64,000 bases of DNA from Natronomonas halophila (GTDB lineage Archaea > Halobacteriota > Halobacteria > Halobacteriales > Haloarculaceae), in the NCBI RefSeq assembly GCF_013391085.1, contig NZ_CP058334.1, positions 1,984,001 through 2,048,000 on the forward strand, given 5' to 3'. Made by a program: the position numbers and the translations under genes. The notes under the pieces were generated by a model. That model saw only the letters and a program-made list of their open reading frames with translations, was not told the origin of the DNA and ran no database searches. Below, piece by piece: positions 10,759-36,382 of the stretch; position 1 is the first letter of the stretch; every line of letters starts with the position of its first letter.

Positions 10759-11871
10759 TTACTCGGCAGCGCAGTTGTTCGGGCCAAGTTCCAACTCGGC
10801 CAGTTCGTCTTCAGGAACCGATTCCTCACCCACGTTTGCACGCTTGACGCGTTCGAAGTTCGGCGGATGCTCCGGGATGTCCGAGGCGAGTTCCTCGATG
10901 AACGCCTCGCGGTCACGTCCTAAGTCCTCGTTTCGTTCCGTGACGTCACCGAGCGTCGCCGTCACCGGCGGATCAGGTGACCCCGGATCGTGTGCTGGCA
11001 AGATGACAGTCTCATCGGGATACTCTAACAGCCGGTGGAGACTTTCGTAAAGCGTTGCAGCGTTCTCCTCGACATCGGCGTCCTCGATGCCGGCTTCAAC
11101 GCCGAGTTCGACCCGCCCCACGCTCTCATGGAAGAGGGTGTCACCCGTTAGCAGCGCCTTCCCCTCGACATCGAAGGAGACGCTGCCCTCGCTGTGTCCC
11201 GGCGTGTGGATGACTTCGACATCGAGAGCGCCGACCGAAACGGTCTGGCTATCCTCGATAGGCGTCGCATCGACGGCGAGTGCATCCTTTGGGTGGAGGT
11301 AGTACGGAACGCCGTGGCGTTCGGCCAGTTTGGCAGCGCCGGAGACGTGGTCGGCGTGGGCGTGGGTGTCGAAGACGCCGACGAGTTCCGTGTCGTATTC
11401 GTCGAGAATCGCTTCATATTCTTCGACGTAATGTGACGGATCGAAGACGGCGGCTTTCCCGTCCGAAACGAGTACGTGAGAGAGGCAGCCTTTCCCAGGT
11501 CGTGCGACCTGAATCAGCGTGCCATCTACGTCGACTGGAACGGGTGCGTGTCGATGGACACGGCTCCAGCCGTTCATCCCGTCGGTGAGCGTTTCGGCGT
11601 CGTAGCCCAGTTCCTGAAGCACTTCAGTCGCGGTCTGTGAGACGGCGCCAACCGTACAGACGGTGACGATTTCCCTGTCGTCGGGGAGGTCAGAGAGCGC
11701 TTCCTTGGCTGCGTCAGGGTCGTTTGTCAGTTCATCGTATACATCGACGTTAGTGCTGTCCGGGATATGCCAGTCGTCGTACTCCTCTTCGTGGCGAATG
11801 TCGAGAACAAGAACGTCCTCTCCATCGACCCGTAGTCGTCGATTGAGTCGCTCGGGGCTGATTTCCGGCAT
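10759..11871 (-). CDS. Rhodanese-metallo-beta-lactamase fusion (sulfur metabolism)
   Basis: The protein has 370 residues. Residues 1-105 form a rhodanese domain whose active-site loop is CTVGAVSQ with Cys72. Residues about 115-320 form a metallo-beta-lactamase fold with THAHADH (H170, H172, D174, H175), HTPGHSEGS, LLTGDTLF and LPAHDPG, as in ETHE1-type persulfide dioxygenases. Family knowledge suggests persulfide or thiosulfate handling in the cytoplasm. In the usual fusions the order is often hydrolase then rhodanese; here the rhodanese is N-terminal. It is first in an operon with the MFS gene and divergent from the Bat-type regulator at 11961. Confidence 0.9.
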   Translation of the reverse strand: MPEISPERLNRRLRVDGEDVLVLDIRHEEEYDDWHIPDSTNVDVYDELTNDPDAAKEALSDLPDDREIVTVCTVGAVSQTATEVLQELGYDAETLTDGMNGWSRVHRHAPVPVDVDGTLIQVARPGKGCLSHVLVSDGKAAVFDPSHYVEEYEAILDEYDTELVGVFDTHAHADHVSGAAKLAERHGVPYYLHPKDALAVDATPIEDSQTVSVGALDVEVIHTPGHSEGSVSFDVEGKALLTGDTLFHESVGRVELGVEAGIEDADVEENAATLYESLHRLLEYPDETVILPAHDPGSPDPPVTATLGDVTERNEDLGRDREAFIEELASDIPEHPPNFERVKRANVGEESVPEDELAELELGPNNCAAE

Positions 11872-20617: not shown

Positions 20618-20626
20618 GTGGGTATC

Positions 20627-21859
20627 ATGGTAGTTGAGACCCTCGTCGAAGGACTGCGGCTCGCTGGTGAGATGTTCTGGGAGACGTGGTGGGCGCTCGT
20701 GCTCGGATTTACGATCGCCGGCGCCGTCGAGACGTTCGTCAGCGAAGAGAAGATGTCTGCCGTTCTCGGCGGCAACGGCTGGAAAGAACTCGGACTCGGG
20801 ACGGTGTTCGGTGCTGCGTCATCGTCGTGTTCGTTCGGGGCAGTCGCGACGACGAAGTCGCTGTTCAAGAAGGGCGCGTCGCCGGTGGCTAGCCTCGCGG
20901 CGTTCCAGTTCGCTTCCACGAACCTCGTCATCGAACTCGGCCTCGTTATGTGGATTCTGCTCGGGTGGCAGTTCGTGTTGGCCGACTACGTGGCGGGCCT
21001 CATCCTCATCGCGCTTCTCGCGGTGGCTTACAAGTACATCGTTCCCCAGAAGTGGTTCGACGCATCGCGCGAATACCTCCGCTCCTCGGAAGGCGTGCGT
21101 GATCCGTCCTGTGGTATGGAGGTCGACCCCACGAGCGATGACGTCCTCACGCTGGAGACCGATGGCGGGACCGAATACTTCTGCTCGGAATCGTGCAAGC
21201 AGGCGTACCTTGAGGAACAGCGTCAACAGGACGCGACGTGGCGCGACCGGCTGTTGACCCGGGATGGCTGGCGACTCGCCTCGAAGAACGCCCTCGGCGA
21301 GTGGGGGATGCTCTGGGAGGATATCGTCGCTGGCTTCCTTATCGCTGGTCTCATCGGAGCCTTCGTCCCCCGCGAGTGGTGGACGACGCTGTTCGGTATC
21401 GGGGCTGAAGGGACGTTCGTGTGGATACTCACCAGCGCAATCATCGGCGTCGTCATCGGTGTCGTTACGTTCGTCTGCTCGGTCGGAAACGTCCCGTTTG
21501 CGGTCATCCTCTGGAACAACGGCATCGCCTTCGGTGGCGTCATGAGCTTCATTTTCGCGGACTTGATTGTCCCGACCATCGACGACGCGTACCGTCGATA
21601 TTACGGCCTCCGGATGGCTACGGTACTGTTCGTCTCGATTTTCATCACCGCCGTCATCTCGGGCGTCGTAATTCATTACCTGTGGAGTGGAGTCGGCCTC
21701 ATTCCGCCTCAGGGAGAAGCCGGAGGGACTGCCCCCGCCGGCTATACGACGTATCTCAACGCCCTCTTCACGCTACTGTTCCTCGGACAGGTTTACGTGG
21801 GCTACTGGACGGCAGGAGGCGACGAGGAATCGGACGACCACGAGATGCATGCAGGCTAA
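20627..21859 (+). CDS. DUF318/ArsP-type permease with internal TRASH/YHS-like Cys domain
   Basis: The protein has 410 residues from ATG 20627; a GTG at 20618 is the alternative start. It has two blocks of membrane helices of the SO_0444/ArsP permease type, with the conserved SSSCSFGAVATTKSLFKKG in the first half and VCSVGNVPFAVILW in the second. Between them sits a soluble insert (about residues 155-200) with PSCGMEVDP and YFCSESC, a treble-clef YHS/TRASH-like metal site. Family knowledge points to efflux of a soft metal or metalloid (Cu, Zn, As). It opens the GC-richer metal cassette. Confidence 0.85.
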   Translation: MVVETLVEGLRLAGEMFWETWWALVLGFTIAGAVETFVSEEKMSAVLGGNGWKELGLGTVFGAASSSCSFGAVATTKSLFKKGASPVASLAAFQFASTNLVIELGLVMWILLGWQFVLADYVAGLILIALLAVAYKYIVPQKWFDASREYLRSSEGVRDPSCGMEVDPTSDDVLTLETDGGTEYFCSESCKQAYLEEQRQQDATWRDRLLTRDGWRLASKNALGEWGMLWEDIVAGFLIAGLIGAFVPREWWTTLFGIGAEGTFVWILTSAIIGVVIGVVTFVCSVGNVPFAVILWNNGIAFGGVMSFIFADLIVPTIDDAYRRYYGLRMATVLFVSIFITAVISGVVIHYLWSGVGLIPPQGEAGGTAPAGYTTYLNALFTLLFLGQVYVGYWTAGGDEESDDHEMHAG

Positions 21860-21883
21860 CCGATAATTCTACGGAGGTTCCAA

Positions 21884-22504
21884 ATGATAGATTGGAAGTC
21901 CGAACCCGGTGAAGATGGCCGAAATAGGTAGGTCCTCCCATCCTGGCTCGACCGATATACCGACGCCGCACTTTACGGACTCGTCGCTGGGACAGTGCTA
22001 TGTCTATTTGCGCTGTTCACGAACCCCGTCCCTGACCCTTCCTTCCCGTGGGCAACGTTGCCCACATCGCTTCGAGTACCAGTCACGCAGCCCCGTATCG
22101 AACACTGGCCCGTCTCGCACACGATCGGTATCTGGCTGTGGGTCCTCGGCGCGCCGGCAGTGTTCCTCGCAGGCTATCGACGGTTCCAGAATCGACCGAC
22201 GGCCTGGCTCGTTGCACTACCAACTACTGCGATGCTTGGTTTGACAACGTACTGTCGGTTCTTCTGGCCGAAGCTCTATCCGGCGACATGGAACGCGCCG
22301 TCGTACACTTTCGTCTGCTGGCTCTACTGTTCCTCGTACGATCACTGTGGAGTAATCTGGCGTACGGTGTCGCGCTACTCGGTGTGGTCGCTACTGTCTT
22401 TGCGGTTCGGGAATCGACGTGGTCCACGTTCGGGTTCGTCGCGTTCGGTGTTTTAGCTCTCCCTTGGGCTTCCTGCGATATACGAAGCGTGTCGCCGATA
22501 CTAG
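21884..22504 (+). pseudogene. Broken membrane protein gene (nonsense plus frameshifts)
   Basis: An ATG at 21884 with a good Shine-Dalgarno (ggaggt at 21872-21877) opens MIDWKSEPGEDGRNR, then TAG at 21929-21931. The same frame resumes VLPSWLDRYTDAALYGLVAG with several membrane helices (LCLFALF, IGIWLWVLGAPAVFLAGYRR, WLVALPTTAMLGLTTYCRFF). Near 22310 the coding shifts to the next frame (FRLLALLFLVRSLWSNLAYG), and near 22465 a further shift gives LPAIYEACRRY and a stop at 22502-22504. It lies 24 bp after the permease, so it was probably co-transcribed once. Family not recognised. Confidence 0.6.
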
Positions 22505-22567
22505 TTGCTGAATTACGATAGCGAGACGCAAGACTACTAATCCGACTGGGACGCAACTACCCTCTCC

Positions 22568-22837
22568 TCACGAGTTTCGGTTCCAAAGGACTGCGAACAA
22601 GCCTCCCATCAAATAGCCGGCAACTGAAGCGATCGTGAGCCCCCCAACTGTCAGCGACAAATCAAAATCCACTGTATCCTCCGGCTCGACAAAGTTTGTC
22701 CGCGCCACAATGTCAACTGCGGATCTGGAGACGTCAGAGACGACAAACCAGATCCACGCGGCGTGAGATGCGGCAAAAATGAGGGCGAACAGGACTCCGG
22801 ACCGATGCTTGGAGATTTTCTCACTCATCGTCTTCAA
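22568..22837 (-). CDS. Small membrane protein, two helices
   Basis: The protein has 89 residues from ATG 22837, or 86 from ATG 22828. A basic N-terminus (SEKISKHRSG) is followed by a helix FALIFAASHAAWIWFVVS, an external acidic loop, and a second helix GLTIASVAGYLMGGLFAVLW. It belongs to no family I recognise. The His and Trp within the first helix and the location inside the metal cassette are suggestive only. Confidence 0.6.
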   Translation of the reverse strand: MKTMSEKISKHRSGVLFALIFAASHAAWIWFVVSDVSRSAVDIVARTNFVEPEDTVDFDLSLTVGGLTIASVAGYLMGGLFAVLWNRNS

Positions 22838-23128
22838 TCACCCCCTCTACGCTGTGTCTGATTGTACTCTGGCCGTACAGTTTTAAGGGCGGGTTCAACT
22901 GATGCACACATCAAACAACGTGGGCATATTTCAATGAATTTTCGCCTCGATACCCCAACTCTTTGTATGTTCTTACTTTCGATTCCTTAGGTAACCCCGG
23001 GATCATTCGACACTACCCAAAGTGACTGTTGCTAACAGAGTGTGTCGGTAGATTCGCAATTTTCAGCGACCAGTTGTTTCGTGCCGTGTCGTATCTAATG
23101 AATTCCCAACAATCCCGAAGTTTGTCCC

Positions 23129-23653
23129 TCAGGAATCTCTGTGGGCGCGAACGAACGCACGCCGCAGGACGGTCAGAAGGACGTACGTCTCGTATTTCTG
23201 GGTCCGACAGTGTTCGCAGGGCTGCATGTCCGCGACGATCTCCTCGATCGCGTCGTCGTACTCGTCCGTGAGCGTGGTGAGTGCGTCCGTAATCTGCGGC
23301 TGGACAGCGTCGATCATCTCCTCAACGGCGGCGTCGGCCGAATCCGGTAGTGAGTACGAGAGAACGATCGTGTTTGCGTGGTAGTACTTCGTGGTCCCAC
23401 CGCGGCCCTCCTCGAAGCGAACAACGTCAACGAGGCCCGCGTCCCGGAGCTCGTTGATGTGGTGGCGAACCGTATTCTCCGTCCGGTCGACGCCGCGATC
23501 TTCGAGGCGTTCGTGGACCTCGGTCGCGGTCAGGGCCTCCTCGGCCAGAATATCGAGAATCATCGCCCGCATCGGCTCGTCAATGGCATCCGAAACCCGG
23601 GTGTCTCGCACCGCGATGTCCTCGAGACGGTGGTCGGTATCGGAGTCACTCAT
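23129..23653 (-). CDS. ArsR-type winged-helix regulator with CEHC motif
   Basis: From ATG 23653 the protein has 174 residues; an upstream extension MLAFSSR is possible. A winged helix spans about residues 20-95: MRAMILDILAEEALTATEVHERLEDRGVDRTENTVRHHINELRDAGLVDV with wing GRGGTTKYYH. The C-terminal half is helical and ends with MQPCEHCRTQKYETYV, a CxxC metal site. It is divergent from the HMA chaperone and P-type ATPase genes, so it very probably represses them until metal binds. The ACGACCAAT repeats at 23757 and 23778 lie in the shared intergenic region. Confidence 0.88.
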   Translation of the reverse strand: MSDSDTDHRLEDIAVRDTRVSDAIDEPMRAMILDILAEEALTATEVHERLEDRGVDRTENTVRHHINELRDAGLVDVVRFEEGRGGTTKYYHANTIVLSYSLPDSADAAVEEMIDAVQPQITDALTTLTDEYDDAIEEIVADMQPCEHCRTQKYETYVLLTVLRRAFVRAHRDS

Positions 23654-23756
23654 ACGAGAACTGAACGCGAGCACGCGGGAAAAGGTAGCGGGACACGAGC
23701 GAGGGTGGCGTCGTTAGCGAACGGCCCGAATGGACCCGCGGTAGCGAAAGCTCTAG

Positions 23757-23786
23757 ACGACCAATTTGACCGTTCCAACGACCAAT
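23757..23786. promoter_or_regulatory. Putative operator: ACGACCAAT direct repeat, 21-bp period
   Basis: ACGACCAAT occurs at 23757-23765 and again at 23778-23786, exactly 21 bp apart (two helical turns), between the ArsR-type gene and the HMA chaperone gene. An AT-rich block (taaaaaatacttattt, 23810-23825) follows at promoter distance from ATG 23851. Spacing and place suit binding of a dimeric regulator. Confidence 0.45.
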
Positions 23787-23850
23787 ATAGAAATTCAAAC
23801 ATATCATCTAAAAAATACTTATTTGGATATAGGCACTATCTCGAACTGTA

Positions 23851-24066
23851 ATGAGCGACACAACCCAGTTCCGCGTCATGGACTTCGACTGCCCGACCTG
23901 TGCGAGCACGGTCGAACGCGCCCTCTCGAACGTCAACGGCGTCCAGCACGTTGAGGTCCACTACGCGACCGGTCGCGTCGAGATCGAGTACGACGACAGC
24001 GTCGCTGACCCCGATGTCTTCGCACAGACCATCGAAAACCAGGGATACACGCCCCAGCCCGCCTAA
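23851..24066 (+). CDS. Stand-alone HMA metallochaperone
   Basis: The protein has 71 residues and is a single heavy-metal-associated domain. The metal loop is MDFDCPTCAST, giving the CPTC (CxxC) site with C14 and C17. The rest is the ferredoxin-like beta-alpha-beta-beta-alpha-beta pattern (VERALSNVNGVQHVEVHYATGRVEIEY). It would deliver soft metal to the P-type ATPase whose ATG begins 5 bp after its stop. The ATPase lacks its own N-terminal HMA domain, so this gene plays that part separately. Confidence 0.93.
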   Translation: MSDTTQFRVMDFDCPTCASTVERALSNVNGVQHVEVHYATGRVEIEYDDSVADPDVFAQTIENQGYTPQPA

Positions 24067-24070
24067 CACC

Positions 24071-25990
24071 ATGAACGAACGATCGATCACGCAGTACTAC
24101 CGGAAACATCGGAAGGCCATCGTCACGGCGACCAGTGGCCTCCTCTACGGCGGTGGCTGGAGCCTTGGCCACCTCACGAGTTTCGATATGGCAAGCGCCG
24201 TCATCCTCGTCTTCGCGACGGTCGTGGGAGGCTACGACATCGCCCAAACCGCCTACCACGAGGTTTCTAACCGGACGCTCGGCATCAAGACGCTGGTGAC
24301 GCTGGCCGCCATCGGTGCCATCATCATCGGCGAGTACTGGGAGGCCGCCGCTGTGGTCTTCCTGTTCAGCCTCGGCAGCTATCTCGAGGGCCGGACGATG
24401 CGGAAGACCCGGACGGCCCTCCAGGAGCTGCTGGAGATGACGCCCGACACGGCGACCGTCCGTCGGGACGGGGAACTCCAGGAGGTACCCGCCCGCGAAG
24501 TCGAAGAGGGCGAAGTCGTCGTCGTGAAGCCGGGTGGGAAGATTCCGGTCGACGGGACCGTCATCGACGGCGAAAGCGCGGTCAATCAAGCACCGGTCAC
24601 CGGCGAGAGCGCGCCCGTCCACAAGGCCGACGGCGACGGGGTCTACGCCGGGACGGTCAACCAAGAAGGTGCGTTAGAAATCCGAACGACGGGTGCGGGT
24701 TCGGACACGACGCTCGAACGCATCATCCGCCGCGTCGAGGAGGCCCAGGAGGCCCAGTCGCCCACGGAGAGCCTCATCGACAGGTTCGCGAAGTACTACA
24801 CGCCTGCCGTCATCGCCCTGGCTATCGGCGCGTATGCAGTCACGCAGAATGCGATCCTGTCGCTGACGCTGCTGGTCATCGGCTGTCCCGGGGCGCTGGT
24901 CATCGGGCCGCCGGTCAGCATCGTCTCCGCAATCGGGAACGCCGCCCGGTCGGGCGTCCTGATGAAGGGCGGTGAACACCTCGAACGCGCCGGCAAGATC
25001 GACCTCGTCGCTTTCGATAAGACCGGCACTCTCACGAAGGGCGAAACCACAGTCGCCGACGTCGAGGGATTTGGCATCGCTGATGACGAGGTCCTATCGC
25101 TCGCGGCGACTACCGAAAAGAAGAGTGAACACCACCTCGCCGACGCCATCGTTGACGCAGCTCGCGAGCGCCCGACCGCTGCGACGGATGGCGGTGCGAC
25201 GGTCGCGAACGCGGTCGAAGCCGACCGGAACCCCCGGTCGATTCCGGACCCTGACGATTTCGACGTGGTCGCCGGCAAGGGCGTCGTCGCTCGCTACGAC
25301 GGCCACGAGATAGTCGTTGGTAACCGCGCACTGCTGGACGACCGCGGTATCGACATCCCCAGTCGGGTCGCCGACTACGTCCGCGAGCGTGAGGAGCGCG
25401 GCGAAACGGTCGTCCACGTCATCCGGGATGGGGACGTCATCGGCACAATCGCGATGCGGGACGAACTCCGAGAGGCCGCCCCTGACGTCGTCGCGGCACT
25501 CCGGGACGCCGGGATCAAGACGATGATGCTCACCGGCGACAACGAACGGACGGCCGCCGCCGTTGCCGAGGAGGTCGGCATCGACGAGTACCGCGCCGAA
25601 CTCCTCCCCGAGGACAAACAGTCCGTCATCGAGGCCTGCCAGGCGGACGGACACGTCGTCGCAATGGTCGGCGACGGCATCAACGATGCCCCCTCGCTGG
25701 CGACCGCCGACGTCGGCATCGCGATGGGTGCCGCGGGAACGGACACCGCCATCGAAACGGCGGACATGGCGCTGATGGCCGACGATCTCGAACGCATCCC
25801 CTACGCGGTCACGCTAAGCAAAGCGACGCGCTGGAACGTCCTCGAGAACGTCGGGCTCGCGGTGCTGACCGTGACCGTCCTCCTCGCGGGCGTGCTTACC
25901 AGCTACATTACCCTTGCGTCGGGGATGCTCGTACACGAGGCCAGCGTCCTCGCGGTCATCCTCAACGGGATGCGACTGCTCCGCTACTGA
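24071..25990 (+). CDS. P1B-type heavy-metal ATPase with CPG motif
   Basis: The protein has 639 residues from ATG 24071. Landmarks: actuator TGES at 177-180, membrane metal motif CPG at C272-P273-G274 (instead of CPC), phosphorylated Asp316 in DKTGTLT, TGDN, and GDGINDAPS. The nucleotide-domain signature usually read SEHPLA is here SEHHLA (352-357), so the hallmark HP dipeptide is HH. There is no N-terminal metal domain. Family role: ATP-driven export of soft divalent or monovalent metal across the membrane. CPG variants exist among P1B pumps, but the metal cannot be fixed from the sequence. Co-transcribed with the HMA gene. Confidence 0.93.
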   Translation: MNERSITQYYRKHRKAIVTATSGLLYGGGWSLGHLTSFDMASAVILVFATVVGGYDIAQTAYHEVSNRTLGIKTLVTLAAIGAIIIGEYWEAAAVVFLFSLGSYLEGRTMRKTRTALQELLEMTPDTATVRRDGELQEVPAREVEEGEVVVVKPGGKIPVDGTVIDGESAVNQAPVTGESAPVHKADGDGVYAGTVNQEGALEIRTTGAGSDTTLERIIRRVEEAQEAQSPTESLIDRFAKYYTPAVIALAIGAYAVTQNAILSLTLLVIGCPGALVIGPPVSIVSAIGNAARSGVLMKGGEHLERAGKIDLVAFDKTGTLTKGETTVADVEGFGIADDEVLSLAATTEKKSEHHLADAIVDAARERPTAATDGGATVANAVEADRNPRSIPDPDDFDVVAGKGVVARYDGHEIVVGNRALLDDRGIDIPSRVADYVREREERGETVVHVIRDGDVIGTIAMRDELREAAPDVVAALRDAGIKTMMLTGDNERTAAAVAEEVGIDEYRAELLPEDKQSVIEACQADGHVVAMVGDGINDAPSLATADVGIAMGAAGTDTAIETADMALMADDLERIPYAVTLSKATRWNVLENVGLAVLTVTVLLAGVLTSYITLASGMLVHEASVLAVILNGMRLLRY

Positions 25991-27921: not shown

Positions 27922-30900
27922 ATGACGACGTCAATCTCGTCTGTCGATAACGCGAGATACACCGTCTACCGGATAATTCCGAGCGAAGAGCATCTTGATG
28001 CTGACGCACTCCGGGATGTGTTCGAACGCCTCCACAGTGTGGACACCTCCTCTCGGTTCGGATTCTGTCTCCTCACTCAGGCCGACCGGATCGAATATTA
28101 TGCGTTCGCCGACTCCGAATATCGCAATACAGTCGAACATACGCTCCGGGGACTATTCCCTGATAGCGCACGAATTGAAACGACGGAACTGCCACCCGAA
28201 TTCGAAATCGAGGAGCCGACCGCAGCACTGGAACTCCACGGCTGGGGCGATCGACAGGACGACTGGCAAACCCGCCTTCGTCCGGTCGTTCGTGAAAATG
28301 CCACCCCACAGTTCCCGCTTGCTGCTGTCGTCAATACGTTAACCGAAGCCGAATCGACGGTCGCCTACCAAGCCGTCTTCTCCCCGAAGCGGGACTGGCG
28401 AGCCGACGCTCAAGTTCGCATCGAACAACTCAAACGGAACACCGACACTCCCAGTCAACGATTCTTCGACTTCCTCCAGGGCGAGTACGACCCCGATCCC
28501 GAGTTCGAGGACGCTAGCCCGGAACATCAGGACCGTATCGAATCGATCGAAGCGATGGATGCGCGTCGATCCTTCGTGGTCAACGTTCGTGCTATTGCTG
28601 ATGGCCCTGACGCCGAGGCAGTTTTGGAGGAAATCACCACGGTGTTCGGTCCGGTCGGTGGGGACTTCTACGAACCCACTGCACGCGTCTACACCGACTC
28701 GGAACGGACTGAAACCGTCGCCTCTCAACTCCGGGCCGCTGAGTGTATCGAGGAACTCCCGTTCCGAACGCGTCTCAAACAGCGGCTGCCCGTCACGGCG
28801 AACGTTTCACCAGCGATCGTTGCGGACCCACTTACTGCCCCGAACTTCTGTCTGCTCGATGGGGCGTCGCTGACCGCCGAAGGCCGTCGGGCACTCGAAA
28901 CAACGCCGAACGAACAGACGGGAATCCCGCGGCCCAACGACGACATACTGGCACAGTACGACGAGGGCATGCTCCTCGGGCGGCCACTCACGACCGACGA
29001 TCAACCGACTGACCCACCAGTATCGCTGCCGCCGTCGCTACAGCCTCTCCATGCCGCCTGGTTCGGGAAAACCGGCTCCGGGAAATCAACGTCGCTGATC
29101 AACGCTATCCTCGAGAACCACGGCGCCACCGAGGGCGCGGATATCCTTATCGACCCGAAAGGCGACGGGATGCCCGTCGAGTACCTACGTGCGCACTACG
29201 CCAAATACGGCGACCTCGATGATGTCTACTACTTCGACTGCACCGAAACGTTGCCGGCAATCTCGTTTTTTGACATCCGCGATCAACTGGCGGACGGCAT
29301 CGACCGCACGACGGCCGTCGAAGACGTCGTCGACCACTATATCGAGATTCTCATCGGAATCATGGGTCGGGACCGCTTCGAGCAGGCGGTCCGTTCGCCG
29401 GACATCATCAAATACCTCGTCAAGGCGATGTTCGACCCGGTCCACGGCGACGACGCCTTCGCACATCGCGACTTGGAGGACGCGGCAACGCGGATGCACG
29501 AAACCCGCGATGCGCCACCCGTCGTCGACGAAGACCTCCAGCGAATGCTCTCGGGTGTCGCTGCCAACAGCAAGCGCTCCTTCGACGAACTCATGCAGGG
29601 GGTTGCAAACCGTATCGAGAAGATCCCGCTCGATGACCGCCTCGGGCAACTCTTCAATCACGTACCCGAAGGCGACGATCCGAAGTTTGACTTCCGGGAA
29701 ATCCTCGACGAGGACGCGGTCGTCATCGTCGACACGGGCGGCCTCCGTCCGGCGAGCCAGCGGACCATCACGCTTGTCCTCCTGTCGGCGCTGTGGAGCG
29801 CGCTACAGCGTCGAACACGAGCGGCCGATACGGACGACCACCCGCTCGTGAACCTATACCTGGAGGAGGCTGCGTCCATCGCGACCTCCGGACTACTGTC
29901 GGACCTGCTTGCCCAGTCGCGGTCCTTCGGGCTCTCGATAACGCTGGCGATGCAGTTCCCCGCACAGCTTCGGCAGGCCGACAACGAGGCCTACGCTGAG
30001 GTCCTCAACAACGTCTCGACGATTATCACGGGCAACGTCGCCGTCGACGACGACCTCGCCAGGCGACTCGCCACGGAGGACATGCCGCCCAGCGAGGTCG
30101 CGAACCGCTTGCGAGCGATTCGTCGCGGCCAGTGGTTCGTGTCGCTGCCGTCGGCCTTCGACGTCGAGGAACCCCGGCCGTTCCTGCTCAAGAGCGCGCC
30201 GCTGCCGCCCGGCCATCCTGATGGAGATAACACGTTTTTGGCGGCCGAGGAGACGGCGTTCGAGGCTGCCTTCGACGTCGTTCGCGACCGGACGCGCCTC
30301 GACCACGGCATCGATATCGCGATGAACACGCGTCAGGCGACGATGGAACGGCATGCCTCGAGTGAGGCCAGCATCGATTCCGAACCCACTGCCGAGGACT
30401 TAGAGTCCGCACCGGAAGTCGATACGGACGCTCGTGTTGACTCCGCACTGCCGTATACGAAACGGCTTCCAGAGGTAGTCGACTACGACGGCGAAGCTCA
30501 CGCACTCGTTTGCGGCGCTTGTGAGACGCGCTATGACCCGACGAGCGATGGGATGCGTCACGCGATACGGTGCTGTAACACGATTGAGGACGTCGACCGC
30601 GACAATATCCCGATCTGCGAACTCAATCTCAAACTCTCAGTTGACGAGCGTCGACAGAGCCCATACACCGACGCACAGTTGCGATTCCTGCAGGCAGTCT
30701 ATGCGGCCCACCAGCGGCGCTTCGACCCGGAACTGGAGTACGACCTCCTGTATGATAGCATGGTCCGCCTACAGGAGTACGTCGGCGTCGACAACCCCGA
30801 AGTACAGGAACTGCTGGACGCGGACCTGCTTTCCGAGGATTGTTCGTATCCACACAAGCTCTATACCGTCACGCCGGAGGGTCGGGAAGCCGCCAACATC

Positions 30901-31392
30901 AGTCATCGTGAAGGAGTCGCCCACGGCGATGGAAAGGGTGATCTGAGCGAATCCTCCCTGCACGTCGGGATGGTCGAACTCGGTCGGCGGTATATCGAAC
31001 AGACGTTCGTCGAGGACGACGACTCCGAGGCCGTCGATGCCGTGAGCTATCACGAGGTCGACGACTACCGACTTGATGCCGCTGGGTTGGATGCCGACGG
31101 CGAGGTCGTCGTTACGATGGAAGCCGAACGGTCGAATCACGACACGCTCCGAGCGGTCCCGGAGGATTACGACAAGATGGCCAACCACGATCCGGAGGCC
31201 GCCATCTGGGTCGTCAAGAACCGTGACGGTGCGCACGACGTCCTCGATGCGCTCAATAACCCACCTGAGGGCGAGGCACGCGTCGAAAAAGAGTACAGTC
31301 GAAGTTCACCGCCACAGCAGTTCAAGATCGACGAGCCCGGGCTGACGGACGTGTTTACCTTCCAGTATCTCCGGGATACGATACTGGAGTGA
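27922..31392 (+). CDS. Type IV secretion/conjugation ATPase (TraD/HerA-like) with extra C-terminal domains
   Basis: The protein has 1156 residues. Residues 1-330 form an N-terminal domain of mixed alpha/beta. Walker A GKTGSGKS lies at 382-389. A DPKGDGM motif follows, and the Walker B-like VNLYLEEA has E648/E649, then LLAQSRSFGLSITLAMQFPAQLR, the sensor stretch of TraG/VirD4/HerA ATPases. After about residue 820 come a Cys cluster (VCGACETRYDP, RCCNT), a winged-helix-like region, and a last domain EVVVTMEAERSNHD...AAIWVVKN that could be nuclease-like. It would pump DNA across or within the envelope in an integrative element. Transcribed alone, convergent with the primase. Confidence 0.85.
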   Translation: MTTSISSVDNARYTVYRIIPSEEHLDADALRDVFERLHSVDTSSRFGFCLLTQADRIEYYAFADSEYRNTVEHTLRGLFPDSARIETTELPPEFEIEEPTAALELHGWGDRQDDWQTRLRPVVRENATPQFPLAAVVNTLTEAESTVAYQAVFSPKRDWRADAQVRIEQLKRNTDTPSQRFFDFLQGEYDPDPEFEDASPEHQDRIESIEAMDARRSFVVNVRAIADGPDAEAVLEEITTVFGPVGGDFYEPTARVYTDSERTETVASQLRAAECIEELPFRTRLKQRLPVTANVSPAIVADPLTAPNFCLLDGASLTAEGRRALETTPNEQTGIPRPNDDILAQYDEGMLLGRPLTTDDQPTDPPVSLPPSLQPLHAAWFGKTGSGKSTSLINAILENHGATEGADILIDPKGDGMPVEYLRAHYAKYGDLDDVYYFDCTETLPAISFFDIRDQLADGIDRTTAVEDVVDHYIEILIGIMGRDRFEQAVRSPDIIKYLVKAMFDPVHGDDAFAHRDLEDAATRMHETRDAPPVVDEDLQRMLSGVAANSKRSFDELMQGVANRIEKIPLDDRLGQLFNHVPEGDDPKFDFREILDEDAVVIVDTGGLRPASQRTITLVLLSALWSALQRRTRAADTDDHPLVNLYLEEAASIATSGLLSDLLAQSRSFGLSITLAMQFPAQLRQADNEAYAEVLNNVSTIITGNVAVDDDLARRLATEDMPPSEVANRLRAIRRGQWFVSLPSAFDVEEPRPFLLKSAPLPPGHPDGDNTFLAAEETAFEAAFDVVRDRTRLDHGIDIAMNTRQATMERHASSEASIDSEPTAEDLESAPEVDTDARVDSALPYTKRLPEVVDYDGEAHALVCGACETRYDPTSDGMRHAIRCCNTIEDVDRDNIPICELNLKLSVDERRQSPYTDAQLRFLQAVYAAHQRRFDPELEYDLLYDSMVRLQEYVGVDNPEVQELLDADLLSEDCSYPHKLYTVTPEGREAANISHREGVAHGDGKGDLSESSLHVGMVELGRRYIEQTFVEDDDSEAVDAVSYHEVDDYRLDAAGLDADGEVVVTMEAERSNHDTLRAVPEDYDKMANHDPEAAIWVVKNRDGAHDVLDALNNPPEGEARVEKEYSRSSPPQQFKIDEPGLTDVFTFQYLRDTILE

Positions 31393-32546: not shown

Positions 32547-33360
32547 TTAATTTCTGATTGTATATTAATAACTAAAGAATTCTGTTCGTGGCGGTAGTTG
32601 CGATTCCTACACCCCCTGCTGAACGAGTGTACGGTAGTGTAAATGGGTGTAACGCCTGATTTATTGAGTATACGGTCGTTCCGAACGCCGCAATGTGAGT
32701 TCAACCTCACTGTGTAGCGGGGGGATTGGTGATTGCACTACACCGCTAACAGTTGGATTCACACGCGATATCGGTACCCCTCGGTTTCGGGTCGAGAGAG
32801 GTCCTCCAATAGCTACGGTACCGCTGACTGTTCGATAGCCACGGGTGTAGACTGGCAGTAGATCAATCGTAACGACAGTAGACGGTAATCCTGAAACCCC
32901 GATACACCCCCGGATGTATGGGGGTGTATCGCCGGTTTTCCAATTTTGAAATAACCGGTATACTGGCCAGTTTACTGTCTCGCATAGCCGCCGTTGATTG
33001 GGTTCGGGACGCTTAGCCGTTCCTTGGGACGTTTGTTGATAACCGATCTGAAATACCTCTGTTATCGTTCGTCGTGTGCCGCATCGCTTTGCTCACATCT
33101 GAAGTCACATCTCTCATTGCGGACGGCTCTGTAATCGTACACCCCCTTGTAGCGGGTTTACAGCCGACTTAACGCCTGAAATCACCGTATCTAACCGTGT
33201 ATTGTGTGGGGCTTCTGCCCCGTATATTACAAACAGTGTACCGACTCTCCGACCGGTCGAATATTTATTACTGAATAGGAGGCCAGAGACCCTCGGCCGA
33301 CGCCCTGGTGGTTTTATTTGGCCGTGTACGGGTGGCGGCCAACTCGGGTCGTTCAAAACC
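32547..33360. other. Noncoding region with TACACCCCC iteron-like repeats (candidate replication origin)
   Basis: No gene is supported in this 0.8 kb between the divergent primase and recombinase genes. TACACCCCC occurs at 32608-32616, 32903-32911 and 33138-33146. Its complement GGGGGTGTA occurs at 32920-32928, and shorter GGGTGTA copies at 32645-32651 and 32843-32849. A perfect 11-bp inverted repeat GATACACCCCC (32901-32911) / GGGGGTGTATC (32920-32930) lies in the middle. Repeats of this kind next to a primase suggest a replication origin or partition or regulatory site. Confidence 0.5.
32901..32930. repeat. Perfect 11-bp inverted repeat GATACACCCCC/GGGGGTGTATC
   Basis: The two arms are exact complements separated by 8 bp (ggatgtat). 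As DNA it is a two-fold binding site; as RNA it would be a strong hairpin. It contains the TACACCCCC unit that recurs through 32600-33150. Confidence 0.7.
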
Positions 33361-33822
33361 ATGAGTCAGAAGACAACAGATCCAGACGGTCGACTCGGCG
33401 TCTACAAGCAGTTCAGCGATGTTCCTGAACGACATCGGCTAGAATCCTACCACGACCAGTACCAAGGTCGAGATCTGTGGGGTGAATTCCTAATTGAGGT
33501 CTATTTTCCACAGCACAACGCCTATCAGACACAACAGGAAGCGCGTCGAACCGGTCGCAAATGGCGGCGTGTCATGGACGAACGCGGACGACACCATGCA
33601 CTTGCACGGCCTGCTGATGTCGAATATCTGTGTAGAGAACTCCTTGAGAACGTAACTCCCCTCACTGCCTACAAAACGTATTGGGGGAAGTTAGAACGGT
33701 TCTATGACTGGCTGCTTTGGCATACTGAGCACCCTCATCTGTATAATCCGCTACTAATGGCTGCGAACGAACATGAGGCAGCTGGCGAGATCTGGGAGAC
33801 AAAGATGGAGGAAACACTATGA
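33361..33822 (+). CDS. Recombinase-associated protein with core-binding-like domain
   Basis: The protein has 153 residues from ATG 33361; the frame extends upstream but without family features. LARPADVEYLCRELLENVTP, TAYKTYWGKLERFYDWLLWH and HLYNPLLMAA form the helical SAM-like core-binding pattern of tyrosine recombinases, yet there is no catalytic domain. Its TGA overlaps the ATG of the full recombinase (ATGA at 33819-33822), so both are made together. It may modify site choice or directionality (an excision-type factor). This role is inference. Confidence 0.75.
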   Translation: MSQKTTDPDGRLGVYKQFSDVPERHRLESYHDQYQGRDLWGEFLIEVYFPQHNAYQTQQEARRTGRKWRRVMDERGRHHALARPADVEYLCRELLENVTPLTAYKTYWGKLERFYDWLLWHTEHPHLYNPLLMAANEHEAAGEIWETKMEETL

Positions 33823-34928
33823 GCGACGAAGTCAGCGACGATCCGGAAACCCGGATTGCTGAAGCATTCGATCGTAGCCAGGACCCACTTGCAGCGTTCG
33901 AAGACGAGTTTACCACGGTGGATGTCGATCCGTTTGAACTGTTCGTGATTGAGTCGGTAGAACAGCGCGATCTGGTCGAGACCACCATCGAAGGATATCG
34001 GCGAGTTCACCGACAGTGGTGCCAGTTCATGGAACGTCAGGGTCGTCATCCGGCGTGTCCAAGCGAACGCCATGTTGCGGCGTTCATCGAGCATCTATAC
34101 GAAGACCGAGATAATCATCCGAATACGGCACAGTCGAAACTGAGGCGGCTGAACGAGACCTATCAGTTCTGGCAGCAGTCCCCCGCGTTTCCTCATCCGA
34201 CTGATTTCAATCCGATATCGCTGGCTATGTCGAAGGTCTCGTTCAGTGCTTCGGAGGATCAAAAGGAGTTGCCGCCACTGTCGATGAGCGAAGTTCGGGG
34301 TGTTCTCCAGTCGATTGACGCCCTTCGTGATCAGTTGATAATCTTCCTGCAACTGAAACTTGGCTTGCGAGCCAGTGAACTGACCAATATCCGCATCGAC
34401 GAAATCGCTATTCGATCAGCTACTCTCCGAGAGGCGTATCCTGAACTCGGTTCACACTGGAGTCTGAGTGGTCGGCCAAATACGATCTTCATCCCTCACG
34501 ATAGAGATCGAAACAAGTCCTGTCGACCGCGTGTGTTACCACTGGATGAAGAGACCAGACGGCTTCTGGAACAATACCTGTATCTGCGACCGGATAACGG
34601 TGAGCCGTGGCTCGTGCTCTCGACAGAGGGTCATAACAAACTGTCCCATCACGACGTGAACAATCTCTGGATCGAGTATTTTAGACCGATGTACGAAGAG
34701 ACGAAACACCACCGAGCCGTTGGGAGCCACTTCGGTCGACACTTCTTCACCACGTATTGGCGAATCGAGAACGGAATCGACCGGCAACTACTTCGATATA
34801 TGAGAGGCGACCGAGCTGAAGGAACGTCTATCAAGGACCGTGCCGGTGTAGACGAGTATATTCACACCTACTACGAGGACGTGGAGGACGTCTTTCGGAA
34901 TGAAGGCTACCAGCTTCTGACTGGGTAG
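33819..34928 (+). CDS. Tyrosine recombinase (integrase)
   Basis: The protein has 369 residues. An N-terminal core-binding domain (about 45-150, VETTIEGYRRVHRQWCQFME) precedes the catalytic domain. Catalytic residues appear as Arg in LGLRASELTNIR, the HFGR motif in VGSHFGRHFFTTYW (HxxR), and the Tyr nucleophile near the end in EYIHTYYEDV. It should integrate and excise the element. It is coupled by a 4-bp overlap to the small core-binding-like gene. Just beyond its stop the composition becomes chromosome-like, so the attachment site is probably within the next tens of bases. Confidence 0.92.
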   Translation: MSDEVSDDPETRIAEAFDRSQDPLAAFEDEFTTVDVDPFELFVIESVEQRDLVETTIEGYRRVHRQWCQFMERQGRHPACPSERHVAAFIEHLYEDRDNHPNTAQSKLRRLNETYQFWQQSPAFPHPTDFNPISLAMSKVSFSASEDQKELPPLSMSEVRGVLQSIDALRDQLIIFLQLKLGLRASELTNIRIDEIAIRSATLREAYPELGSHWSLSGRPNTIFIPHDRDRNKSCRPRVLPLDEETRRLLEQYLYLRPDNGEPWLVLSTEGHNKLSHHDVNNLWIEYFRPMYEETKHHRAVGSHFGRHFFTTYWRIENGIDRQLLRYMRGDRAEGTSIKDRAGVDEYIHTYYEDVEDVFRNEGYQLLTG

Positions 34929-34966
34929 CCCGTCCGCCTTTTCGCCCATCACCGTATCGCGTCGCC

Positions 34967-36382
34967 TCAGGCGGTCCAGTGGCCGTTCGGCCGCTGCAGT
35001 TCGAGGGTGACGTTGTTCCCGCCCGAATCGATTCGGTCGAATTCGAGGGTGCCGCCGGACCGTTCCGTGATCCAGTGGACGAACCACAACCCGAGTCCAC
35101 TCGTGTGGAACGTCGGGGTTAGCGACGTGAAATCATCCAGCGGGAGGTACTCCATGTCCGGTATCTCGGGCGCGGAATCGACTACTCTAACCGCGACCGT
35201 CGATTCGCGCAATCGCACCACGGCGTGTACGGAGGGTTCCTCGGCGTCGTTGTGTACGATGCCGTTCTCGATGAGTTCACGAATCGCCTTGTCCACGGCC
35301 GGCGCGGCGACGGCCGTCGCCGAATCCGGCATATCATAAGTGATTCTGCTGTCCGGGTACTCCTCACGGACTTCCCGAACGACCGATTCGATGACGTCGA
35401 CCACGTCGAGTTCTTCGACGGGTTCGCGCTCGGTCAACAGTTCGACGATTTCGTGGTGGTTATCGAACAGCGAGAGCAGTTGCTCCGATGCGGTTTCGAT
35501 TCGGCCGGCCACTTCGGAGGGTCGGGCCGTGCCCTCCCGGAGTCGGTCGGCCTGTCCGTTGACGATGTTGACCTTGTTGCGGAGGTGGTGTTGCAGCAAC
35601 CGGTCGACGGCATGGAGGTGCTGGTCTCGGGCGACTCGCTCCGAGATATCACGCCCGATACCGACCAGTCCGACGACCTCTCCGTCCCGGACTAATCGCT
35701 GTTTGCGGAATTCGAAGGGAATCTCCCGGCCCCGTTTCGTCACGACGGTCGCCTCGATGACGTCCTCGCCGCCGGCGAAGACCGACGCGATCGATTCGGA
35801 GACGCGGTCGGCGTCGGCGTCGACGAAGAACTCCTCGACGTGCATCTCTCGAACTTCCGACTCGTCGTAGCCCGACACCTCCAGCAGGGCGTCGTTCCAC
35901 CGTTTCAGGTCCCCGCCGGGCGTGATGACGTAGAAGACGTCCTGCAGCGCGTCGAGCGCGTCGTCGATGAGCTGGCGTTCCGCCTCCAGTTCCGCCTGGA
36001 CGTTCTTGAGGTCCGTGACGTCGATGATGACCGCTTGCCCGATATCCTGTCCTTCGTATCGTCCGGGCGCGGTGGTGACCCGGATGCTGCGCGTCTCGCC
36101 GTCCACTCGCTGTAGTTGCATCTCGGTGGGTCCCGCCGACCGTTTGTCCCCGACGACCGTCGCGAGTTCTTGCTTTGCCGTGTACTTGTCGTCGGGGTCG
36201 ATGAAATCGAAGATGGAACGGCCGATCAACTCCGACCGAGAGGAAAGGCCCAACAGGTCGACGACGGCGTCGTTGCCCCAGAGTACCTCACCGTCCGCAT
36301 CGAAGAGATTGATCGGCGCCGGCGAAGCCTCTATCAACTGCCTGTAACGCTGTTCGCTGTCGTTCGACCGGAAGAACCTCAT
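34967..36382 (-). CDS. PAS-PAS histidine kinase
   Basis: The protein has 471 residues. Two PAS domains (about 10-125 and 140-250) end with DVTDLKN and DISERVA. The dimerisation region carries LLQHHLRNKVNIVNGQADRL, the H-box type found in many haloarchaeal kinases, and the ATPase domain has IRELIENGIVHN and a shortened G-region (SGLGLWFVHW). There are no membrane helices. It is the first gene on the chromosome-like side of the composition boundary and is convergent with the recombinase gene, 38 bp away. Confidence 0.92.
   Translation of the reverse strand: MRFFRSNDSEQRYRQLIEASPAPINLFDADGEVLWGNDAVVDLLGLSSRSELIGRSIFDFIDPDDKYTAKQELATVVGDKRSAGPTEMQLQRVDGETRSIRVTTAPGRYEGQDIGQAVIIDVTDLKNVQAELEAERQLIDDALDALQDVFYVITPGGDLKRWNDALLEVSGYDESEVREMHVEEFFVDADADRVSESIASVFAGGEDVIEATVVTKRGREIPFEFRKQRLVRDGEVVGLVGIGRDISERVARDQHLHAVDRLLQHHLRNKVNIVNGQADRLREGTARPSEVAGRIETASEQLLSLFDNHHEIVELLTEREPVEELDVVDVIESVVREVREEYPDSRITYDMPDSATAVAAPAVDKAIRELIENGIVHNDAEEPSVHAVVRLRESTVAVRVVDSAPEIPDMEYLPLDDFTSLTPTFHTSGLGLWFVHWITERSGGTLEFDRIDSGGNNVTLELQRPNGHWTA

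Follow-up and report, generated by a model that had tools for sequence, protein, structure and literature searches.

A conserved iteron locus at the PrimPol gene of haloarchaeal mobile elements and its probable reader, a HerA/VirD4-like DNA pump

Analysis of a 64-kb stretch of the 3.21-Mb chromosome of Natronomonas halophila (hereafter the window; G000:C1:1984001-2048000) supports the view that the iteron block next to its PrimPol gene represents a cis-acting locus that is conserved and organised and is linked to the PrimPol gene of mobile elements. With a probability of roughly 0.55, we read the block as a docking locus for a DNA pump, from which DNA is handed to PrimPol for transfer and/or copying of the integrated element. 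The pump would assemble on the dimeric and single sites of the block through its C-terminal winged helix and pass DNA from there to the adjacent NrS-1-type PrimPol, which would prime the synthesis needed to transfer and/or copy the element. Transfer or replication is what we infer as the outcome of docking, and both an origin and a transfer role may hold if pump-docked, PrimPol-primed copying takes place during transfer. The locus, of docking or origin type, is real and conserved and the general idea of the preliminary description holds, while the primase as its partner and a plain oriV reading are doubtful.

The block is flanked by the leftward primase gene, the stop of which lies 17 bp from the end of the pump gene, and by two rightward genes, a 153-aa ORF followed by the gene of a tyrosine recombinase (33361-34928; Table 1). 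The preliminary description had placed the repeats in a 0.8-kb gap between primase and recombinase; the length agrees with the 814 bp that follow the primase, but the 153-aa ORF comes first and the recombinase starts only at 33819. Exact TACACCCCC occurs four times in the window against 0.27 expected copies, a number reached in none of 100 shuffles, and all four copies fall within 32608-33146 (32608(+), 32903(+), 33138(+) and 32920-32928(-)). The shorter TACACCC occurs ten times in the window, six of them in the block. When the spacer was shuffled 300 times with dinucleotides preserved, no shuffle contained a 9-mer four times, a 7-mer six times or an inverted repeat of 12 bp, and the repeats are thus real and clustered beyond chance in both window and spacer shuffles. 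The three direct and three inverted copies initially described are correct for TACACCC, but exact TACACCCCC has three direct copies and one inverted; similarly, the central inverted repeat is perfect as claimed, but has arms of 12 rather than 11 bp.

Table 1 Features of the iteron locus and its neighbouring genes (window coordinates).
Feature	Position	Strand	Evidence or remark
HerA/VirD4/TraG-like DNA pump, 1156 aa (weak but consistent matches)	27922..31392	+	Pfam TrwB_AAD_bind E 2e-7
Predicted winged helix, pump C-terminal part, aa about 917-983	30670..30870	+	structure model
Predicted PD-(D/E)XK-like fold, pump aa about 1012-1112	30955..31257	+	structure model
NrS-1-type PrimPol with helix-bundle domain, 378 aa	31410..32546	-	Pfam PF22763 E 2e-32
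Spacer holding the whole iteron locus	32547..33360	.	814 bp, 51% GC; shuffle-tested
Iteron TACACCCCC	32608..32616	+	exact-motif search
Iteron, TACACCC only	32645..32651	-	7-mer search
Outer inverted repeat, left arm CCGCAATGTGAG	32688..32699	+	inverted-repeat search, pair I5, 92% complementary
Iteron, TACACCC only	32843..32849	-	7-mer search; site 59 bp left of core
Conserved left flank of core, CTGAAACCCCG	32891..32901	+	alignment and site list of relatives
Core inverted repeat	32900..32931	.	iterons at 32903(+) and 32920(-); recurs in relatives
Core arms, 12 bp each	32900-32911 and 32920-32931		
Core spacer, 8 nt	32912-32919		
Conserved right flank of core, TCGCCGGTTTTCC	32929..32941	+	alignment and site list of relatives
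Outer inverted repeat, right arm CTCTCATTGCGG	33111..33122	-	pair I5; similar pair in alignment of relatives
Iteron TACACCCCC	33138..33146	+	exact-motif search
153-aa ORF before recombinase	33361..33822	+	no Pfam match
Tyrosine recombinase of the element	33819..34928	+	Pfam Phage_integrase E 1e-7

Elsewhere in the window, a low-GC island (about 2001-23000 and 20618-25990; 50-60% GC compared to 62-70% right of 35 kb) harbors an ArsP_1 permease and a P-type ATPase and is probably cargo of the element. A search for att sites near 34850-35150 returned a single, chance-like 14-bp match.

Among the 391 genomes of the class, a search for the pattern TACACCCC-N7..10-GGGGTGTA revealed the core in 12, a count that includes one single core lacking an iteron cluster and probably due to chance (G217), and in 4 of 146 genomes of the family, while the reversed control pattern gave none. 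In an alignment of the window with loci L032, L035 and L058, the core is almost invariant between its flanks CTGAAACCCCG and TCGCC and is accompanied by an outer inverted pair CCGCAATGTG/CATTGCGG. L032, L035, L058/L199 and L193-L195 retain the core, its flanks and the spacing of the satellites; satellite sites recur at about -290, -59 and +235 from the core, although not every locus has all of them (the one 59 bp to the left persists in L032, L035 and L194), and the site list of relatives gives up to ten spread sites of fixed spacing per cluster. The motif search in related elements, which the preliminary description had named as a check, thus recovered the same core, flanks and spacing, either beside the gene of an NrS-1-type primase or alone. 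A primase gene lies near the TACACCC block in seven loci, namely the window, L032 (truncated primase), L035, L036 (where the block lies 3' of the gene), L199, L201 and L210. TACACCC clusters with neither primase nor pump in the fetched stretch were found at L191, L192, L193, L194, L195-L198 and L202-L209, and L200 has one core without a cluster. As 22 residues of the pump C-terminus remain at L194, this locus is probably a remnant; solo clusters, some of which occupy the same chromosomal place in several species, are not explained by a simple element-borne locus. Conversely, L031 (G000:C1:2911876; 79% primase identity) and L033 (77%) still have primase and pump sequence but no longer the iteron block, and other genes directly follow where it would stand.

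Several of these loci merit a description of their own. At L191 (L191:9702; G000:C1:1979701-1979725), 4.3 kb left of the window start, a second TACACCCCC core comes with a cluster of four sites; the gene for a 340-aa phage-type integrase ends 171 bp away, and no primase or pump lies nearby. L202/L205, L203/L206/L208 and L204/L209 each represent one chromosomal place across species of one genus, and the clusters of L202-L206, L208 and L209 have paired TACACCC cores about 255 bp apart, again without primase or pump. L032 (G000, about 1.083 Mb) and L192 (G117, same genus, about 2.809 Mb) are degenerate elements in which the block lies about 320-370 bp from a gene for a protein of 1221-1305 aa, the C-terminus of which reads by eye as MCM, with a recombinase and the 153-aa ORF a few kb away.

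The geometry of the core, two 12-bp arms around an 8-nt spacer, would also suit a core recombination or dimer-resolution site of the neighbouring tyrosine recombinase, which lies 0.9 kb off in the window, just as an integrase gene ends close to the L191 core. We nevertheless consider this quite improbable: a recombinase was found around the block only in L032 and L039 (21 loci searched) and in L192 (20 loci), in each case accompanied by the 153-aa ORF, an attachment site ought to be split in an integrated element, and plasmid blocks composed of direct repeats only (L040, L049) have no such core. An operator of the primase promoter, or an Orc1/Cdc6 box with ORBs used in trans, would fit the position upstream of the primase, the G-run followed by TGT that resembles the plasmid ORB-like TTACAACTCGAAAACGGGGGGTGT, and one of the paired-core clusters, which has a Cdc6_lid AAA gene at a distance of 341 bp. 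However, the ORB half CTCGAAAAC is absent from the sites in the window and its aligned relatives, an Orc1/Cdc6 gene is lacking from the window (the two PF09079 matches of G000 lie elsewhere), and up to ten spread sites at fixed spacing would be unusual for an operator, which leaves this explanation with very little probability. ORB-like TTACAACTCGAAAACGGGGGGTGT repeats do occur on both sides of the Orc1/Cdc6 gene of the G076 plasmid (L071, 9048-9520), and the stretch with ORB-like repeats on the L072 side (11098-11300) is present in L071 too.

The primase itself is common, with matches at E <= 0.001 in 232 of 391 haloarchaeal-class genomes when remote matches are included. Within 700 bp upstream, 56 of 95 primase loci have one of ten motif classes, named after inspection of the data, in three or more copies, and the other 39 do not; the TACACCC or CACACCC family accounts for 6 of the 95. 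Among the 68 loci that passed our filters (recognisable pump tip, primase of at least 280 aa, ORF of at least 330 aa; 64 of these enter the pair counts below), 63 show some 7-mer three or more times in the part of the spacer beyond +120, compared to 2.9 expected from shuffles. Most relatives carry iterons of another sequence than the window's at the same place. Absence of the motif from homologous elements that keep the primase had been named beforehand as the outcome that would refute the proposal; taken literally, this is the case in most relatives, yet mostly another iteron stands there. Enrichment of the best 9-mer over the relatives did not discriminate, as 31 of 94 upstream regions exceeded 40 shuffles, and 48 coding controls did the same (L111, with a short upstream region, was dropped), and in whole-plasmid repeat scans the primase blocks ranked high but not first in three plasmids, some of the higher-ranking repeats being ORB-like. 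In the spacers of L040, L042 and L045, CCTTGGTCCCAACGGGGACCCCCCGTTCTAT..TAGTTGGTT is kept next to the primase, at about +75 to +120 counted from its start, across different iteron families, and may represent a promoter, a terminator or a nick region.

On the primase tree (built without L032, L088, L115, L125 and L127, which have a short primase, and without seven duplicate rows), iteron families are clustered but jump, with 31 changes against a shuffled mean of 45.9, and near-identical primases (~95-96%) carry different iterons. The tip of the pump proved to be a far better predictor: the identity of its last 72 aa predicts a shared iteron 7-mer with an AUC of 0.956, compared to 0.782 for the preceding 150 aa of the pump and 0.67 for the primase. 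In 425 pairs with a primase identity of at least 85%, the tips are 94% identical if iterons are shared (139 pairs) and 32% identical if not (286 pairs). L041 and L044 are 96.5% identical up to +120, have no similarity over iterons and tip, and return to 92.6% identity in the pump; L091/L042 and L052/L040 show a like exchange, the ends of which are sharp, at +120 in the spacer and within the pump gene between motor and tip. These alignments show that, in plasmid relatives, the block and the predicted C-terminal winged helix of the pump are exchanged as one cassette while the primase stays.

The plasmid tips match the Pox_D5-family winged helix in four of four cases (E 7e-9 to 5e-3, one of them below Pfam's cut-off), and a model of the tip resembles the RFX DNA-binding domain (E 5e-4). 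All 34 loci with iterons of the GGACA/GAACA type have WF.RKL in the recognition helix (12 distinct helices), and 19 of 21 loci with iterons of the TGCnGTA type have WF.RRL (exceptions L025 and L112), counts to be read with the caveat that the loci are related and the motif classes were defined after seeing the data. As iterons and tip switch together and the helix residues track the motif class, we concluded that the iteron reader is probably the pump rather than the primase, and that its winged helix would bind the iterons. The adjacency of tip gene and block could by linkage alone yield part of the co-exchange pattern; linkage by itself leaves unexplained why no switch is seen in the primase, which lies just as near. 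The original pairing of iterons with the primase accordingly gives way to one with the DNA-reading domain of the pump.

The same data bear on the idea that the iterons are primer start sites read by the helix-bundle domain (HBD) of PrimPol itself. This domain is present in the window primase, GTG lies within GGGGGTGTA, and NrS-1 polymerase, according to the accessible parts of two reports, primes sequence-specifically and reads TTTGGTTA or GTG on the template (PMC8718748, PMC7102993). As iterons are wholly different between loci with almost identical primases and several iteron families lack GTG, we regard this as most improbable.

In the window, the primase aligns with the NrS-1 structure 6k9a at E 2e-43 over aa 14-320, the Prim/Pol-HBD part, including the conserved catalytic blocks DLD and SPSG.G.H. 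The match stops at aa 320 of 378 and no helicase match was obtained, indicating that the fused helicase part is missing. The pump also matches NCBIfam TraD (E 3e-9, under the curated cut-off). The Pox_D5-type profile was negative in the window, L031-L039 and L058, where the pump has no such tip; instead, a model of aa 861-1156 (mean pLDDT 81.5) predicts a winged helix followed by a PD-(D/E)XK-like fold. Foldseek returned nothing at E <= 0.001 for this model, with weak matches of the winged helix to MarR-type proteins and of the PD-(D/E)XK-like fold to a repair endonuclease (2vld) and EndoMS. We infer from the model that the predicted winged helix is a candidate reader of TACACCC in the window's clade; the nuclease-like domain behind it, if built in as such, would suit a nicking role. 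Strong matches to aa 861-1156 (E <= 1.1e-120) occur in 21 of 391 genomes, and the TACACCC core is present in 7 of these 21 compared to 5 of the 370 others, G217 included (Fisher p 3e-7, ignoring kinship). Three genomes (G124, G294, G342) have the core without a pump-part match among those listed, and 14 of the 21 have the match without the exact core.

Orc1/Cdc6 is the usual haloarchaeal initiator. Ten free plasmids carrying this primase were examined, and each has an Orc1/Cdc6 gene, with ORB-like repeats beside it in the two whose sequence was read there. This has to be weighed against the possibility that the block is an oriV of the NrS-1/P4 type, with an initiator on the iterons and the PrimPol-helicase split into PrimPol and a pump-type motor. 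Several short-repeat copies do lie beside a replication gene, PrimPol always adjoins the block (though by design of the search), the primase is strongly NrS-1-like, the pump carries a replicase-type reader, and elements without VirB4/TrbL nearby retain block, PrimPol and pump; VirB4 or TrbL relatives were absent from the window and from L191-L210. In addition, the accessible text of PMC4234260, which also covers pRN1, describes split initiation in RSF1010. GC skew, however, does not support this explanation: in the ten plasmids, the skew minima lie at a mean fractional distance of 0.47 from the block, with 0.5 expected, and within 8% of the half-circle in only two, so that a sole or main origin is disfavoured by the other initiator and by the lack of a skew shift at the block. 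A minimum 0.9 kb from the block of G076C3 was striking but was not upheld over the ten plasmids. Moreover, in the plasmid examined (NZ_CP095484) the motor is T4SS-linked: the pump gene closes a T4SS-like operon (TrbL/VirB6 match E 1.5e-136; VirB4-like match below cut-off) and faces the block from the side opposite the primase, and its product has a winged helix of the Pox_D5 type at the end. Taken together, a plain oriV appears rather unlikely. Of the proposed candidate origin, the conserved iteron locus at the PrimPol gene stands, with iterons at the same place in most relatives, while a role as sole origin found no support.

For the docking locus, a point in favour of transfer is that the pump is VirD4-like with a reader of its own, as in AICEs; a point against it is that the window contains no VirB4 or TrbL relative. 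An FtsK/HerA-superfamily pump, an integrase and PrimPol are found in the same element, and the C-terminal winged helix of the pump may be cognate to the repeats, given co-exchange and helix code in the plasmid relatives and a predicted winged helix in the window. More tentatively, as something possible rather than probable, we propose an undescribed initiation/transfer module in which a HerA/VirD4-type pump bearing the origin-reading winged helix of NrS-1/P4/D5-type replicases works with a free-standing PrimPol, site and reader form an exchangeable cassette, and solo clusters are acted on in trans. If true, related plasmids would change identity in one step by cassette exchange, and solo chromosomal site clusters would be loci on which the pump acts in trans. 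Exchange of the site block together with its presumed reader offers a direct test of specificity, and such cassettes would supply a typing scheme for haloarchaeal plasmids. PrimPol elements of the window's kind are common among haloarchaea, and the finding links replicase-type DNA readers with conjugation-type pumps. Neither the window's iterons nor a site-reader exchange is described in the titles and abstract openings of the literature searched.

Among known systems, fusexin elements are likewise haloarchaeal integrated elements and carry the same gene kinds (XerC/D, HerA, VirB4, TraG/VirD4), although the word 'primase' is absent from the main text on them in the portion available (PMC9259645). 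Archaeal islands are covered in PMC4158269 and mobile-element primases in PMC5862659, in the accessible text of which 'halo' does not occur. Haloarchaeal Orc1/Cdc6 origins, as far as described in the available parts of PMC3528665 and PMC3936714, similarly have inverted G-rich repeats next to a replication gene. In contrast to these, the block has no adjacent Orc1/Cdc6 gene or ORB half-site, and free plasmids carry Orc1/Cdc6 besides the block. The NrS-1 PrimPol-helicase and the P4/pRN1-type initiators share PrimPol with HBD and a C-terminal winged helix of the Pox_D5 kind within the system, and P4 alpha binds iterons via its C-terminal domain. Here, however, the primase lacks the helicase part, the winged helix sits on a separately encoded pump, and in plasmids the iteron block lies between the primase and pump genes. 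Actinomycete AICEs, as stated in the accessible parts of two reports, combine a tyrosine integrase and Prim-Pol with an FtsK-like Tra, which binds clt as well as clt-like regions of chromosomes (PMC3218068, PMC4170104). The clt of Streptomyces plasmids and AICEs (TraB, 8-bp TRS repeats) is alike, in what these sources describe, in its element-specific short repeats, hexameric-type pump, PrimPol and tyrosine integrase, and its clt-like clusters elsewhere in chromosomes recall the solo TACACCC clusters. Unlike clt, the present locus is archaeal, with a HerA/VirD4-type pump that in plasmids lies within a T4SS-like operon, a reader of the Pox_D5/RFX type (plasmids) that swaps with its site as a cassette, and sites in both orientations around an inverted core. 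The block resembles clt as found in actinomycete AICEs, or else an NrS-1/P4 initiator that has been split.
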